Shown in pieces: positions 1 through 6,026 of a stretch of DNA of 23,672 bases. Origin of the DNA: a virus. Under the pieces are notes generated by a model, which saw only the letters and a program-made list of their open reading frames with translations, had not been told where the DNA came from and did not search any database. A program made the position numbers and the translations under genes. Location: positions 1 through 23,672 of the IMG/VR virus record IMGVR_UViG_3300045107_000076; one strand, 5' to 3'. Every line of letters starts with the position of its first letter. Position 1 is the first letter of the stretch.

Positions 1-22
1 TGTTCCGGCATAACGTTATAAA
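1..22 (-). repeat. Partial cassette junction (site F), cut by window edge
   Basis: On the minus strand the sequence reads ATTTATAAC followed by GTTATGCCGG and then leaves the window. The TTATAAC end is the inverted partner of GTTATAATG at 48-56. This suggests another attC-like junction and further cassettes to the left. Only its first arm can be seen. Confidence 0.35.
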
Positions 23-56
23 TTTAGCTTTTGAATAAACCGCCGGGCATTATAAC
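14..56 (-). other. Possible gene-less mini-cassette
   Basis: This unit of about 43 bases lies between a GTTATAATG end (48-56) and an ATTTATAAC end (14-22), which are near-perfect inverted copies of each other (GTTATAA shared). It contains no start codon followed by a useful reading frame. By the logic of the neighbouring units it would be a cassette with no gene. Alternatively it could be the decayed edge of a larger unit. Confidence 0.3.
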
Positions 57-128
57 TTTATTCGGCTGCGGTTGCCGGGGCTGACGAATCAATGAAGCCC
101 CCAACAGCATAAATACCTGACGTTAGCG
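45..128 (-). repeat. attC-like palindromic junction, site E
   Basis: On the minus strand the site opens with CGCTAAC (stop codon of the 87-residue gene included) and closes with GTTATAATGCCC. The interior is an imperfect hairpin: plus-strand GGTTGCCGGGGCT (71-82) pairs with AGCCCCCAAC (96-105) across a loop of about 13 bases. The motif CCGGGGCTGACG (75-86) is shared in slightly altered form with sites A (GCGGGGCAGACG) and B (GCGGGCTGACG). The length of about 80 bases is within the usual attC range. Confidence 0.5.
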
Positions 129-386
129 GGCATTATACTGACTCACCAACTTTTCTGCTTTTTCTCTATTGAATCGAGTATTTTCATCGCTCCAGCAAAT
201 ATTCAATGTACATCCTTCAATCCATCCCCAAGCAGTTCCATCACAATTCGGGTGTGCATTTTGCTTTATTATCAATTTCTTTCTTATAGGAATAATTGGC
301 TGACCACTAGTGTCATAACCAATAACGCCCGCTAACACATTATTTGCGTCAGTGGGGATTTCGTTCTTTTTATAATCTGTGTGCAT
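123..386 (-). CDS. Hypothetical cassette-borne protein, 87 residues
   Basis: I do not recognise this small protein. It is soluble, has no signal peptide or membrane segment, and has a middle part with HPNCDGTAWGWIEGC (two Cys and several Trp) that could be a small folded core. The start at 386 is an ATG in a very AT-rich leader, 48 bases after the upstream cassette end GGTGGGGCATTA. The TAA stop lies inside the cassette end CGCTAACG. The unit's two ends share GGGCATTA/TAATGCCC as an inverted repeat, a weaker match than in the other cassettes. The gene sits alone between two palindromic junctions on the same strand as the rest of the window. Function cannot be inferred. Confidence 0.6.
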   Translation of the reverse strand: MHTDYKKNEIPTDANNVLAGVIGYDTSGQPIIPIRKKLIIKQNAHPNCDGTAWGWIEGCTLNICWSDENTRFNREKAEKLVSQYNAR

Positions 387-428
387 ATTTTAAATTTTTG
401 TACTGTTAATAATCTTTGGTGGTGTAAT

Positions 429-462
429 GCCCCACCGAACGCAAATAATCGTTCCGTTGGGC
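429..462 (-). repeat. Short attC-like hairpin junction, site D
   Basis: On the minus strand GCCCAACGGAACG (450-462), an 8-base loop, then CGTTCGGTGGGGC (429-441). The two 13-base arms pair at 11 positions. The opening GCCCAAC fits the attC core RYYYAAC exactly. The closing core reads GGTGGGG rather than GTTGGGG, so it departs at an invariant position. At 34 bases it is shorter than typical attC sites and may be a deleted or decayed junction. Confidence 0.45.
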
Positions 463-469
463 GAAATGC

Positions 470-838
470 CTACCACTCCGTAACTACACAGACAGACCAA
501 CCCCAACTTCTTAAATGAGTTTCTAAATATTCGCAAAACGTATCACATTCGCCCGGAGCAGCTTCATCAACAACGGCCTTGTATTCATAACAGCTATCTC
601 CGTGAAGTTTTACAACCTCATTACATTTCAAATCTCCCCAGTTTATTGGCTCTGAATTATCAATTTCAAAGTGCTTAATTCGTTCCGGGTCAACTCTTGT
701 TAATGACTTAAATTCTGCAACAGGAATATACAACGCCTCAATAAGCATATTGACAAGCGATTGTATTCTCATTTCGGAGGTTGTTTCTTTAAACAACCCA
801 TTGGCTGCATAAAAATCAAATTGTTCTTTATTATTCAT
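470..838 (-). CDS. Hypothetical cassette-borne protein, 122 residues
   Basis: This is an unrecognised acidic, soluble protein. There is no signal peptide or membrane segment. The C-terminal third has several Cys and Trp residues (GECDTFCEYLETHLRSWGW, then a hydrophobic VCVVTEW end), and the N-terminal half looks helical. The ATG at 838 lies 40 bases after the cassette end GTTGGGC (872-878), which fits the classical GTTRRRY core exactly. The TAG stop (470-472) is directly followed by GCATTTCGCCCAAC, the inverted partner of that end (10 matching bases, GTTGGGCGAA). The gene is therefore framed by one matched pair of cassette ends and is probably a mobile single-gene unit. Nothing indicates a biochemical role. 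Confidence 0.65.
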   Translation of the reverse strand: MNNKEQFDFYAANGLFKETTSEMRIQSLVNMLIEALYIPVAEFKSLTRVDPERIKHFEIDNSEPINWGDLKCNEVVKLHGDSCYEYKAVVDEAAPGECDTFCEYLETHLRSWGWSVCVVTEW

Positions 839-871
839 AGTTTGACATTTTTATAATTTACCGGCACATTC

Positions 872-996
872 GCCCAACAAGGGTATTGCTTCCATTGGGC
901 TGCGACACAAAACTCATCCAAGTACATATCCAAGCTAATTGCATAGGCTGAACATCACCTATAAATTCCCAACGGCAGCAATACCTACCGTTACCC
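872..996 (-). repeat. attC-like palindromic junction, site C
   Basis: On the minus strand it opens with GCGGGTAAC (990-998) and closes with GTTGGGC (872-878). Inner arms GGTATTGCTGCCGTTGGG and CCCAATGGAAGCAATACC pair at nearly all positions, with a long loop between them. Length is about 125 bases. GTTGGGC matches the attC core GTTRRRY exactly. The opening core is the end of the methyltransferase cassette. The arm GGTATTGCT is also found in site A. Confidence 0.55.
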
Positions 997-1002
997 GCAA
1001 TG

Positions 1003-1674
1003 CTAAAACAGCGACACGGATACTCCATTAAGCAGGTTTTTAGCGGTTCGACAATATTCGGGTTCAACTTCAAAACAAATGAAATCCCGCCCTATTTCTT
1101 TACAAGCCCTTGCTGTTGAAAAACTACCAGCAAAAGTATCTAAAACTAAATCGCCTTTATTGGTGCTTTTTTCTATCAAGTATCTTAAAAGGTTTGTTGG
1201 TTTTTCGGTTGGGTGATTATCAGTAGGCATCTTTGCACATTTAATTACATTGCTACTTCGCCCACCATTTAATTTTTTACTTCCGTTGCTACAAAATATT
1301 ATCAGTTCATACTTTGGGGCGTAATCGCCAAGTAAATCACCGCTACCGTGATTATTCTTTTCCCATACTAATATATTTTTTACATTGAAATACGCCCCTA
1401 ATGTTTGCTTAAAAACATCAATATTATGCCAACTGCAAAAAATATAAAGGTGGGCTTCGGTCTTACATACCCTTTTTAGTTCTTTGCACCAATCACTCAA
1501 CCAGCCCAAATCAGTATCGTTTTGGATACTTTTGTGCTTTTCTTTACGCCTGTTGCTCCTGTATGCCATACCATATGGCGGGTCAGTCAAAACAAGGTCA
1601 ATCGTGCTATCAAAAACCTGCTTAATTCCATCTTCCCAATCAATGCAAACCACTTCATTAACGAAAGGAAGCAT
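1003..1674 (-). CDS. Beta-class DNA methyltransferase (N6-adenine or N4-cytosine)
   Basis: Probable AdoMet-dependent site-specific DNA methyltransferase that modifies an exocyclic amino group. Numbered from Met at 1674, the catalytic motif DPPY is at residues 31-34 (LVLTDPPYG), HPTEKP at about 154-159 and the AdoMet-binding motif DTFAGS at about 179-184, followed by FICFEVEPEY. Catalytic motif before AdoMet motif is the beta-class order. The AdoMet motif reads FAGSFS where FAGSGT is usual, so the Gly-to-Phe change is worth noting. The frame is open to an ATG at 1746, but those 24 extra codons are made from attC-like site B. The ATG at 1674 lies within the 14-base cassette end GTTACCCGCAATGC and gives 223 residues. 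The stop abuts the inverted copy of that end. No restriction endonuclease is adjacent, so it is an orphan enzyme, perhaps protecting the element from host restriction. Target sequence unknown. Confidence 0.85.
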   Translation of the reverse strand: MLPFVNEVVCIDWEDGIKQVFDSTIDLVLTDPPYGMAYRSNRRKEKHKSIQNDTDLGWLSDWCKELKRVCKTEAHLYIFCSWHNIDVFKQTLGAYFNVKNILVWEKNNHGSGDLLGDYAPKYELIIFCSNGSKKLNGGRSSNVIKCAKMPTDNHPTEKPTNLLRYLIEKSTNKGDLVLDTFAGSFSTARACKEIGRDFICFEVEPEYCRTAKNLLNGVSVSLF

Positions 1675-1677
1675 TGC

Positions 1678-1811
1678 GGGTAACACGGGTTTTGCGTCAG
1701 GCGGGCTGACGTGCAAGTTTTCAAGTTCTGTAATTCTATTTATCATCTGTGCTTAAATTAAAGTTTGGTATTTCAAATCCCGCCCGAACGCAAAGCCCTC
1801 GAACGTTAGTG
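1678..1811 (-). repeat. attC-like palindromic junction, site B
   Basis: On the minus strand the site opens with CACTAAC (1805-1811) and closes with GTTACCC (1678-1684), 134 bases in all. Its arms GGGCTTTGCGTTCGGGCGGG and CCCGCCTGACGCAAAACCC pair at most positions and enclose a loop of roughly 55 bases. Plus-strand 1768-1816 resembles 2553-2600 in site A at roughly 70 percent by eye, and GCGGGCTGACG (1701-1711) recurs in altered form in sites A and E. Confidence 0.6.
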
Positions 1812-2447
1812 GCAATTTTCGGGTAACAGGTTGCTACCATTGCCAGACGTTATATTGTTGAAAAAATCTATTGTTTCAGAAAAGGCTTTGACACCTCGTG
1901 GCGTATCAGAAGTTTGAACAGGGGCGGGTATAAAACACTCTTTCAACTTTTCTTTTTGACACCCAAGGTCAACGGCATATTTGCTAATTACATCGGCATC
2001 CGAAACATGGTTAAATAGAATTTCATTCAGGTATTCGTAAAGGTTTGTTTTCATGTTTGGCGGCAGCGGAACAATATTCTTTACGTTCGCCTCATTATTG
2101 TAATCAGGCTTAAAATAATCGTAGCCGTAATCTTCATCATCCCAATCGGTTTGATAACTGCCTTTCAAGGTTTCAAATCCGCTAAATACTCCCATGTGGC
2201 ATGGAACAAAAGTTATTTGAACCTTCATTGTTAGTGTGCCTGTTCGCAAAGTGTTTGACAGGTTTATTTCATGCTCCATAAAAGCATGGTGTGTTTGCCC
2301 TACTTCCGCAGCTTTGGGAATACGGAAAATGATACCTTTTTTGTGCTTGTAACGCCTTACATCAAAGTGCGGAGTTGACTGCACCAATTCGGAGTAATCC
2401 CAAAGGATTTTCGGAAGTTGTAATGTTGTGTAGTTAATTGTTGCCAT
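1806..2447 (-). CDS. Hypothetical cassette-borne protein, 213 residues
   Basis: I do not recognise the family. The protein is soluble, of mixed composition, with an acidic Tyr-rich stretch in the middle (WDDEDYGYDYFKPDYN) and no signal peptide. The ATG at 2447 lies 23 bases after the cassette end GTTAGTGGCA (2461-2470), and the TAA stop is inside the inverted copy TGCCACTAAC (1805-1814). The last 15 or so codons after FFNNI overlap a second small palindrome (1805-1850), so the natural C terminus may once have been shorter. The next unit downstream is the methyltransferase cassette. There is no evidence of a functional link beyond shared strand and array membership. Confidence 0.65.
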   Translation of the reverse strand: MATINYTTLQLPKILWDYSELVQSTPHFDVRRYKHKKGIIFRIPKAAEVGQTHHAFMEHEINLSNTLRTGTLTMKVQITFVPCHMGVFSGFETLKGSYQTDWDDEDYGYDYFKPDYNNEANVKNIVPLPPNMKTNLYEYLNEILFNHVSDADVISKYAVDLGCQKEKLKECFIPAPVQTSDTPRGVKAFSETIDFFNNITSGNGSNLLPENCH

Positions 2448-2463
2448 GACTGAATAAAACTGC

Positions 2464-2597
2464 CACTAACATGGTATTGCTAAAAGCGGGGCAGACGTAA
2501 CGCATTTCAGCAACAGGAATACTATTAAACTTCATCAAGCCATCGGGCGGACGTATTCCAAATTCCCGCCTTCAGCAATCCCCGAACCGTTAGCAGC
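2464..2597 (-). repeat. attC-like palindromic junction, site A (first of the array)
   Basis: On the minus strand it opens with GCTGCTAAC (2589-2597) and closes with GTTAGTG (2464-2470). Inner arms, plus strand GGTATTGCTAAAAGCGGG (2473-2490) and CCCGCCTTCAGCAATCC, pair almost fully, with a loop of about 75 bases. It is the most upstream junction found. The inverted partner of its opening end (GTTAGCAGC on the minus strand) was not found further upstream, so this may be where the array joins phage DNA. Confidence 0.55.
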
Positions 2598-2602
2598 AAT
2601 AA

Positions 2603-2697: not shown

Positions 2698-3375
2698 TCA
2701 CATCTCTCTCACATAAATGTTTTTCCTCTTTTTATTGAGTGCTAAAACAAAATATTCATCCGCTTCTTTTTCTTCTTTTATCAGACCGTCTTTTTTTAAA
2801 ATGATTCGGCTGTAATCAGGAACATTTTCCACCCTACCGGATCTTATCCGTTGATAAAATTCTTCCGTCCATTGCCGGTGAAAATTATCCAATTCTTCAT
2901 CTGAATAGATTTTAACAGGCGGCGGTTCTTTTTTCCTTTCTTCAATCTCATGACTTGCATATTTCCTTTCTTCCAGGTAGGGAATTAAAACCTCGTCCAC
3001 TAATGAAAGATTAAATGTTTTGCCCCAATCTTTGACAACAGTTCCTTTTTTTCTAAATGCAAATTCTATCTCATCTACATTCATGTTCGGATAGCTTTCT
3101 ATCAAATGCTTTCTAAACTGATCCGCTAAAACATCTTTTAATTCGGGTTCAATAACCCAGCCTGTGATGACATGAATTTTCAATAGCAATGCTTTTGTAT
3201 GTCGGCGAAGAGTATCCGGGTCCATGGTGCCGATCTGCGGACTTTGATATTTCATAGCAATGATTTGCTTATCCGGTTCCTGCAAGATCATTGCGAAGGT
3301 CATTGAGGATGGCAATGGCTCCTGAACTCTTATTCCGCTTTTGGGAAGTATTTCCGAAATGTGCTTTGCTTCCAT
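2698..3375 (-). CDS. Unrecognised phage early protein, 225 residues
   Basis: A charged soluble protein of 225 residues from the first ATG. Residues about 1-110 look mixed helical (SPQIGTMDPDTLRRHTKALL). The middle resembles a helical metal-free domain, and the C-terminal 80 residues are rich in Glu/Lys/Arg. No catalytic motif is recognised. It overlaps the upstream replication-type gene by 107 bases when started at 3375. Starts at residue 25 (3303) or 29 (3291) would cut the overlap to 35 or 23 bases, so the start is uncertain. Its position directly after a replication initiator suggests an accessory replication role such as helicase loading, but that is inference from context only. Confidence 0.75.
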   Translation of the reverse strand: MEAKHISEILPKSGIRVQEPLPSSMTFAMILQEPDKQIIAMKYQSPQIGTMDPDTLRRHTKALLLKIHVITGWVIEPELKDVLADQFRKHLIESYPNMNVDEIEFAFRKKGTVVKDWGKTFNLSLVDEVLIPYLEERKYASHEIEERKKEPPPVKIYSDEELDNFHRQWTEEFYQRIRSGRVENVPDYSRIILKKDGLIKEEKEADEYFVLALNKKRKNIYVREM

Positions 3376-4666: not shown

Positions 4667-5188
4667 TTATGAAAGGTTTACACTAATAGTAGTAGTAGAT
4701 GATTTTGCAGGTTTATAAACTTTCCTGGTTTCTCCCGTTTCTCCATTGGTAATTATTAATCCACTGTCAGGAACGGTTTTTAAAAATTCCTGCCGGGCTT
4801 TTACCATTGCATCTATTTTCTCCTGCTGCACTAAAAGTTCATTCAACTCTTCATCCTCACATTTTGTCCAGTCATATTTTATTCCGGTTTCTTTGATCTG
4901 AAATTTTGCATTGTACTTTTCAAAACCATTACTGATCTTTCCCTCTTTTGATGCAGCTTCCAATAATGCAGCCCGGTATCTTTCGGCAAAATCCTTTCCG
5001 GTTTTTTCATCGGTAAGCATTTTAAAAATCTGCTCAATATTTTTCAAAAAAACATGGACCTGTAGCGGATCGGCTTCTCCGTTTTCCAGCTGCTCAATTA
5101 TTTGAAGGCAAAAAGATTTTCGCTGTGATTTGTTGCTATTTAATAATGCCAGCGTACTAAGCGGTGACATTTGCATGGTTGTTTCCAT
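4667..5188 (-). CDS. Hypothetical phage early protein, 173 residues
   Basis: A mostly helical, charged protein. Residues about 20-75 and 120-140 (ELNELLVQQEKIDAMVKARQ) look like long helices, possibly coiled coil. The C terminus is Thr/Ser-rich (KSSTTTISVNLS). It overlaps the annealing-protein gene by 32 bases, which implies translational coupling. The position behind an Mgm101/Rad52-like protein is where phages often encode an exonuclease, an SSB or an accessory recombination factor, but no nuclease motif or OB-fold signature is seen. Its role is unknown. Confidence 0.75.
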   Translation of the reverse strand: METTMQMSPLSTLALLNSNKSQRKSFCLQIIEQLENGEADPLQVHVFLKNIEQIFKMLTDEKTGKDFAERYRAALLEAASKEGKISNGFEKYNAKFQIKETGIKYDWTKCEDEELNELLVQQEKIDAMVKARQEFLKTVPDSGLIITNGETGETRKVYKPAKSSTTTISVNLS

Positions 5189-6026
5189 TATAAATAAATT
5201 TTGGGTTTAAAATATTTTTTGCATTGTCTTTTGAAATCCGGTAATAGGATGTAACATCATCCATAGTTATTTCACCGGTATGAATTTTCTTGAAAGCATT
5301 ATCCCATTCTTTGGTGCCGGGATTCAACCAGGGCTTTTGTCCATGCCCGGTCAACGTATTATTTTTGGGCTGTTCTTTTTCAGAATGAATGATACCCGGC
5401 TTTTCGTTTTTTTCTTTGGGATAAACAGGAGATTGATCGGAAGGAACAATTCCGGTCTCATTATAAAATGCCGGTGAATCTTTTTTTCTCCATTGCACAC
5501 CCACTTTTCCATCTTTCTTTTTTACAAACACCCGGATTGCATTATCGGCGCACCATTTTCTTATAAATTGCGGCTGCCATAATTCTGATGCTATTCCCAA
5601 ATCTTTGCAGCAGCGTGTAATACAATCTGATTTTGCACTTTCCCAAACAGACGCCCAGGACTGTTGCTGGTTGCTTTCATGATATTCGGCCTCACCTACA
5701 GCCGTGGACATGTAGCTACCACGCACCATTAATACCCCCTCAACGTATAATTTATTTGCTTGCGGGTCCTTTGTCTGATTTTTTACTATCAAACACCATT
5801 GACCAATGCCGAATGCCTGGTTAAGCCGTAGCCGCCAAAATGTTTGCGGCAAATAAATTAAGCCATCAGGCCTGATCTCAATAGATTTTTCATCAAAAGA
5901 AGCTAAAAGCATTTTTTGCTCCTCCTCTGTAATTTTTAGAAGAGACGCATTTTTGTAAATCTCAATCTTCTGATCAAGATTTTCGGCAGACTGATTTTCT
6001 ATTGTCTGCAATTGATTTTTTTCCAT
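5157..6026 (-). CDS. Mgm101/Rad52-like single-strand annealing protein
   Basis: Predicted phage recombinase that anneals complementary single strands. Residues 53-80 (PDGLIYLPQTFWRLRLNQAF then GIGQWCLI) match the start of the Rad52/Mgm101 core, in which an RLNxAFGxGxW motif is typical. Residues 93-118 (YVEGVLMVRGSYMSTAVGEA) and the signature AKSDCITRCCKDLGIASELW at 131-150 fit the Mgm101-type proteins of mitochondria and phages. The C-terminal 130 residues are Lys/Asn/Pro-rich and probably disordered, ending in a small helical segment (EITMDDVTSYYRISKD). Length of 289 is usual for phage members. It is in the early operon upstream of the replication genes, fitting a role in replication-linked recombination or genome repair. 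The assignment is by motif memory and was not searched. Confidence 0.75.
   Translation of the reverse strand: MEKNQLQTIENQSAENLDQKIEIYKNASLLKITEEEQKMLLASFDEKSIEIRPDGLIYLPQTFWRLRLNQAFGIGQWCLIVKNQTKDPQANKLYVEGVLMVRGSYMSTAVGEAEYHESNQQQSWASVWESAKSDCITRCCKDLGIASELWQPQFIRKWCADNAIRVFVKKKDGKVGVQWRKKDSPAFYNETGIVPSDQSPVYPKEKNEKPGIIHSEKEQPKNNTLTGHGQKPWLNPGTKEWDNAFKKIHTGEITMDDVTSYYRISKDNAKNILNPKFIYNGNNHANVTA

Follow-up and report, generated by a model that had tools for sequence, protein, structure and literature searches.

What sort of element occupies the start of this virus record, where genes and palindromic junctions alternate with no integrase beside them, and which enzyme could move such genes? 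The stretch analyzed here (the window) is the entire record IMGVR_UViG_3300045107_000076 (23,672 bases), and all genes discussed lie on its minus strand. Positions 1-2591 form a cassette array without an integrase, and phage genes follow its last site, E. A first-pass annotation, made from the sequence alone, had read the array as an integrase-less cluster of integron recombination sites (attC) in a phage. This reading is supported: a covariance model matched the sites, one gene was exchanged at integron exchange points, and no tyrosine recombinase match was obtained anywhere in the record. The window probably carries at least five integron-like cassettes that are moved in trans by a recombinase of the host. 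Because the contig starts within a further site, the array is truncated at position 1. The contig makes up the whole record, so the missing integrase is uninformative by itself.

Structure and Homology of the Junctions

The five junctions (A-E), initially described as long imperfect palindromes running from AAC to GTT, span 2591-2468 (E), 1807-1682 (D), 992-876 (C), 458-334 (B), and 124-54 (A) on the minus strand. Covariance model R1 was built from 28 Bacteroidota chromosomal sites and zero phage sequences, and is therefore an independent test of the junctions. In an unfiltered search of the window, R1 matched junctions B-E on the minus strand with E-values from 1.1e-30 to 1.2e-3 (Table 1), a positive outcome, obtained with R1, for a covariance check of the kind proposed in the annotation; no R1 match was obtained at junction A. 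Junction A is a probable attC-like site on account of the palindrome that can be seen there and of the pairing of its unit ends. The characteristic attC hairpin, an imperfect palindrome in which some bases between R'' and R' stay unpaired, was found at B-E by R1 and in the folds.

The unit structure noted earlier was also recovered, with one gene in each of cassettes 1-4 and none in unit 0 (16-122). In each of the four gene-bearing units, one end repeats the other in inverted form, with 10-11 of 11 bases matching; in unit 0, the pairing was seen by eye, and the ends of neighboring units differ. In the folding check proposed with the annotation, junction C folded best. The DNA fold z-scores varied from -0.2 to -3.1 (about -1 to -1.5 for A and D); thermodynamic folding beat the shuffles weakly, and z-scores alone fail to separate sites from shuffles. 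The case for the junctions is carried by the homology and covariance evidence, and folding alone is a weak test.

Exchange of the Methyltransferase Cassette

Searches among the viral contigs found no relative of gene 4 or the phage gene at 2698-3375, so the order of the four window genes was not checkable, and the comparison covers the methyltransferase cassette (991-1805, plus strand). It was found in five other viral contigs (L002, L003, L004, L005, and L007) with 87-93% DNA identity and unrelated flanks, the identity of L005 covering the gene core only. Read along the plus strand, the similarity among the six copies starts at g↓TTACCC (the arrow marks the exchange point), with no common sequence before it. 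On the right, the hairpin beyond the gene terminates at G↓TTA in five copies (window, L002, L003, L004, and L007), and L005 has G↓TTAGGC there. The breakpoint comparison suggested by the annotation thus yielded one cassette in six contexts with edges exactly at G↓TT. Judged from these six sequences, the breakpoints are those of the integron exchange rule (5'-G↓TT on the attC top strand). In L007, the cassette is alone, and no further hairpin was found on one side. L006, which is more distantly related, shares this left edge; its positions 1500-2150 contain a methyltransferase of 67% identity, bounded by GTTACCC/GGGTAAC ends of its own and accompanied by an unrelated hairpin, possibly a second cassette lineage.

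Gene Orientation Relative to attC

The gene of an ordinary integron cassette is directed towards the attC of that cassette. The copies of the methyltransferase cassette share a block of hairpin and gene in which the hairpin comes first on the gene's strand. Together with the exchange at G↓TT, this arrangement identifies the plus strand as the attC top strand and the genes as reversed. Independent agreement on the top strand comes from the chromosomal loci, where a recombinase described below is encoded on the 5' side of the site, read along that strand, in 11 of 12 cases. The annotation missed the inversion of the cassettes: each hairpin goes with the gene that it precedes when the gene's strand is read.

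The orientation was counted using an exact hairpin pattern that is blind to orientation; the pattern scan gave 21 viral stretches. All 16 viral cassettes were reversed, with a start codon inside the hairpin in every case, and the reading frame stayed open through the 3' arm in 15 of them. The chromosomal cassettes included 82 ordinary and 4 reversed ones (82/86), and 1 of 88 was open through the arm. The 16/16 reversal in viral cassettes is not due to chance. In a wider, R1-based set, the ratio of reversed to ordinary cassettes was 49:1 in viruses versus 8:29 in chromosomes. The sole chromosomal cassette of the phage type (reversed and read through) in the exact-pattern set was observed in Rudanella paleaurantiibacter (L177, 7391-7690, minus strand), near groEL and in no obvious prophage.

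Two of the four gene cassettes of the window have genes (1 and 3) that begin inside hairpins B and D, respectively. Starts and stops had been placed within 0-50 bases of the unit ends; the starts of these two genes are not merely near the ends. Gene 3 begins with MINRITELENLHVSPPDAKPVLPA, in which PPDAKP is encoded by the conserved arm; its N-terminus (...SPPDAKPVLPA...) is encoded by the 3' arm of hairpin D.

Phage Carriers and Cargo

No tyrosine recombinase was found in 21 of the 24 cassette-bearing phage records, many of which are fragments. Pfam annotation of 46 phage cassette proteins assigned 11 to DNA modification (seven N6/N4 and two C5 methylases, one Dam, and one Mom), and the others were mostly small. 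One 4.2 kb contig (L003) contains four different methyltransferase cassettes in a row. The best reading of these data is that phages carry an inverted cassette pool of their own, in which DNA modification genes are common.

Hairpin Family in Bacteroidota Genomes

The exact pattern of both arms was detected in at least 119 stretches of bacterial genomes, nearly all of them Bacteroidota. The hairpin pattern was present in 19 of 296 Bacteroidota genomes, and the reversed control gave 0. The complete metagenome-derived chromosome CP058707 (G001) contains 27 exact matches, which are spread over about 500 kb and all lie on one strand; a tyrosine recombinase is encoded 3.3 kb away from the final site. 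A search of 420 kb of it with R1 gave 326 matches, a few of which are weaker other-strand readings of the same hairpin. The region at 3,487,000-3,986,900 of CP058707.1 (L275-L277, L291-L310) is an array of about 500 kb, essentially on one strand and with the recombinase at one end; it is possibly among the largest integron-like arrays known.

By blastn, the phage hairpin had no match in named phages. No convincing R1 match was found in Polaribacter phage P12002L and Tenacibaculum phage JQ (best E = 0.0011), and their sites are therefore assigned to a different subfamily. Sites of the R1-type attC family also adjoin genes on plasmids of Bacteroidota, lnu(H) among them (Table 1), which suggests that the sites near lnu(H) mark resistance cassettes of the hairpin system.

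Array-Adjacent Tyrosine Recombinase

The enzyme encoded beside the chromosomal arrays is a tyrosine recombinase of about 360 amino acids without the IntI-specific domain, in line with the first suggestion that the recombinase might be divergent or not an IntI. The integron integrase model TIGR02249 (cut-off 265 bits) scored the array recombinases at 191-198 bits, in two pieces, and two true IntI at 394 and 509 bits. In the alignment, the IntI-specific region near patch III is missing from the array recombinases, with a short YRPKxWLFEGQxGGQYS in its place, and the N-terminus carries about 85 additional residues. This part (L144, 1596-2666, minus strand; L249; and others) showed no clear Pfam family; a HARP-like N-terminal domain was considered on a single weak match (E = 0.041) and rejected. 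The best NCBIfam model was NF040815 (200-221 bits, cut-off 220).

In seven of the eight genomes examined, the recombinase and a site are no more than about 5 kb apart; in the eighth (G002), the best copy lies far from the sites. Among the matches listed, about 12 of the 119 regions extending up to 8 kb around chromosomal sites contained it, against an estimated 0.25 or so expected by chance. It was detected in 11 of the 19 site-bearing genomes versus 49 of the 277 others (Fisher p = 2e-4). No IntI over the cut-off was found in the 12 array genomes. The recombinase tree placed IntI on its own branch, the position of which is unsure. An AlphaFold2 model of the recombinase (mean predicted local distance difference test score 78, predicted template modeling score 0.53) had an integron integrase (2a3v) and archaeal Xer as its best matches, and these predicted similarities do not decide between the two.

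Layout of the Array and Other Features of the Record

The features of the array are listed in Table 1. The Rfam search of the window found a tRNA alone, the tRNA-Met (CAT) gene of the phage at 6996-7071 (minus strand). An Mgm101-family (Rad52-like) annealing protein is encoded at 5157-6026 (minus strand; E = 5e-41); no match to it was found among named phages.

Table 1. Features of the cassette array and a plasmid site of the same family. The attC top strand is the plus strand; cassette coordinates run between G↓TT points.
Feature	Coordinates	Strand	Remarks
Additional attC-like site, 3' end only (cut off by contig end)	1-15	+	GTT at 15-17 on plus strand; putative, read from sequence
Cassette 0, geneless	16-122	+	Inverted ends GTTATAAT / ATTTATAAC, seen by eye
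attC-like site A (probable)	54-124	+	Imperfect palindrome; no significant R1 match; weak fold
Cassette 1	123-456	+	Gene 1 and site B; end boxes 10/11 complementary
Gene 1, 87 amino acids	123-386	-	Start within hairpin B; stop codon overlaps TTA of exchange point
attC-like site B	334-458	+	R1 329-463 (-), 82.4 bits, E = 2.2e-20
Cassette 2	457-990	+	Gene 2 and site C; end boxes 10/11
Gene 2, 122 amino acids	470-838	-	No Pfam or PHROG match
attC-like site C	876-992	+	R1 871-997 (-), 19.9 bits, E = 1.2e-3; fold z -2.8 and -3.1
Cassette 3 (methyltransferase)	991-1805	+	Common to five other viral contigs; end boxes 11/11
Gene 3, N6/N4 DNA methyltransferase, 247 amino acids	1003-1746	-	PF01555, E = 3.7e-39; start within hairpin D
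attC-like site D	1682-1807	+	R1 1677-1812 (-), 120.9 bits, E = 1.1e-30
Cassette 4	1806-2589	+	Gene 4 and site E; end boxes 10/11
Gene 4, 213 amino acids	1806-2447	-	No Pfam or PHROG match; stop codon overlaps TTA of exchange point
attC-like site E, last of the array	2468-2591	+	R1 2463-2596 (-), 42.3 bits, E = 1.2e-9
attC-family site near lnu(H)	L315, 4001-4127		Empedobacter brevis plasmid NZ_CP043636.1; also L316, Myroides plasmids

Proposed Mechanism and Alternative Explanations

On the plus strand, each cassette runs in the order G↓TT, reversed gene, AAC, hairpin, and G↓TT. When phage DNA enters a host, the host recombinase would bind and cut the folded attC strand and insert or remove cassettes at the G↓TT points. 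The orientation of a cassette would be fixed as it enters an existing array, and in an array running against transcription only cassettes with reversed genes would be co-directional with phage transcription. The 5' leader, and in many cases the start codon, would come from the attC. Reversed cassettes may thus persist in phages through co-directional genes that often have a start site in the hairpin, and the benefit may be a quick swapping of anti-restriction genes. With somewhat less assurance than the movement in trans, we favor the wider proposal that Bacteroidota possess an integron system of their own, with a recombinase lacking the IntI domain and arrays of more than 300 sites, and that their phages have evolved inverted cassettes as a class apart, with the hairpin serving as leader, start, and N-terminus.

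Several observations weigh against these proposals. Strict RYYYAAC / GTTRRRY cores occur only at C (R'') and B (R'), one of five each, so that most cores deviate, as had been pointed out at the outset; GTTR is present at all five junctions. In a classical attC, it is the L'' arm of the top strand that carries the extra bulge base; here, by pairing counts, the extra single base appears to bulge from the other arm. R1 was built from one hairpin family, and other Bacteroidota sites may behave differently. L004 and L005 retain the gene core but carry different hairpins; exchange therefore also takes place at the inner box or through homologous recombination involving the arms. The recombinase is tied to the sites by association only, recombination was not observed, and exchange was read from the comparison of sequences. 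The host phylum of the phage rests on the site family, its proteins being without close relatives. The viral contigs are uncultivated, several are fragments, and the phages may carry the enzyme elsewhere.

Could the cassettes instead be remnants of classical integrons moved by a host IntI, with the array recombinase as a bystander and the reversal a product of chance or sampling? Exchange at G↓TT is the rule for IntI, attC clusters were already known in phages, and the attC2 site of Polaribacter phage P12002L was recombined by IntI1, as reported in one study (PMC9892861). We nevertheless regard this explanation as unlikely: none of the 12 hairpin genomes has an IntI match over the cut-off, a non-IntI recombinase is strongly enriched beside the hairpins and at the 5' end, and a 16/16 reversal is not what chance gives. 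Still less probable is a shuffling of genes by homologous recombination or single-strand annealing through the hairpin arms, aided by the Mgm101/Rad52-like protein. The phage does encode such a protein, and L004 and L005 combine the same gene core with a different hairpin, but annealing of arms predicts mosaic breakpoints within the arms, not one base-exact point in every copy; the homology ends at G↓TT, the sequence beyond is unrelated, and L007 has no further hairpin on that side.

The inverted ends of each unit would also fit small transposable elements with the hairpins as terminal inverted repeats, but this is scarcely credible, given that no transposase was found in the window cassettes (Pfam, PHROG), that the end sequences of neighbors differ, and that the chromosomal arrays are ordered, run in one direction, and lie beside one recombinase. 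Movement of the cassettes in trans by a host recombinase remains the preferred explanation.

Implications

If true, an integron system without the IntI domain would explain the near-absence of recorded Bacteroidota integrons (PMC9024848) and widen the integron concept; we propose that it was overlooked because integron detection depends on that domain. On the phage side, it would mean gene capture tuned for phages, with reversed cassettes often bringing their own start codon. With the hairpin as leader, start, and N-terminus, any captured gene would be expressed in the phage operon. The recognizable phage cargo consists mostly of DNA modification genes, and exchange would allow the swapping of anti-restriction tools. 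The hairpins near lnu(H) on Bacteroidota plasmids indicate that the system may bear on the spread of resistance.

Comparison with Known Systems

The occurrence of attC clusters in phages is already known. Integron arrays joined to phage genes had been thought rare in the first-pass annotation; there is, however, a precedent in Qi et al. 2023, who report integrons or attC clusters in 21 phages, methyltransferase cassettes included (PMC9892861). The phage clusters of attC sites lacking integron integrases (CALIN) described there resemble the window array in their integrase-less attC-like hairpins, methyltransferase cargo, and absence of an enzyme nearby. In contrast, a general reversal, starts inside attC, and the Bacteroidota hairpins with their recombinase are not described in the sections consulted; the divergent attC directions in P12002L are considered there as a possible by-product of mosaicism (PMC9892861). 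By eye, the P12002L sequence has a reversed layout like that of the window, and its hairpins do not belong to the R1 family. Insertion of single cassettes at attG, short non-att targets outside arrays, is reported for IntI (Loot et al. 2024, cited in PMC11023631); the lone cassette of L007 seems to have landed in a similar way. The IntegronFinder 2.0 survey of more than 20,000 complete genomes recorded one complete integron in Bacteroidetes proper (PMC9024848). The Bacteroidota hairpin family with a non-IntI recombinase, together with the phage-specific reversal, is apparently undescribed in the open-licence papers that were searched.

The closest annotated enzymes are the XerA-like "site-specific tyrosine recombinase/integron integrase" proteins (NF040815), the model that scores the array recombinases best; the N-terminal part of the array recombinases lies outside it. 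To our knowledge, NF040815 enzymes have not been tied to cassette arrays. Sedentary chromosomal integrons of the Vibrio type are alike in their long one-direction arrays, the recombinase at the 5' end, the order of gene and then attC, the G↓TT exchange, and the high similarity of hairpins within an array. Unlike them, the Bacteroidota system has a recombinase without the IntI-specific domain and with the extra N-terminal part, its sites differ in the R boxes and apparently in the bulge side, and one of its arrays extends over about 500 kb.

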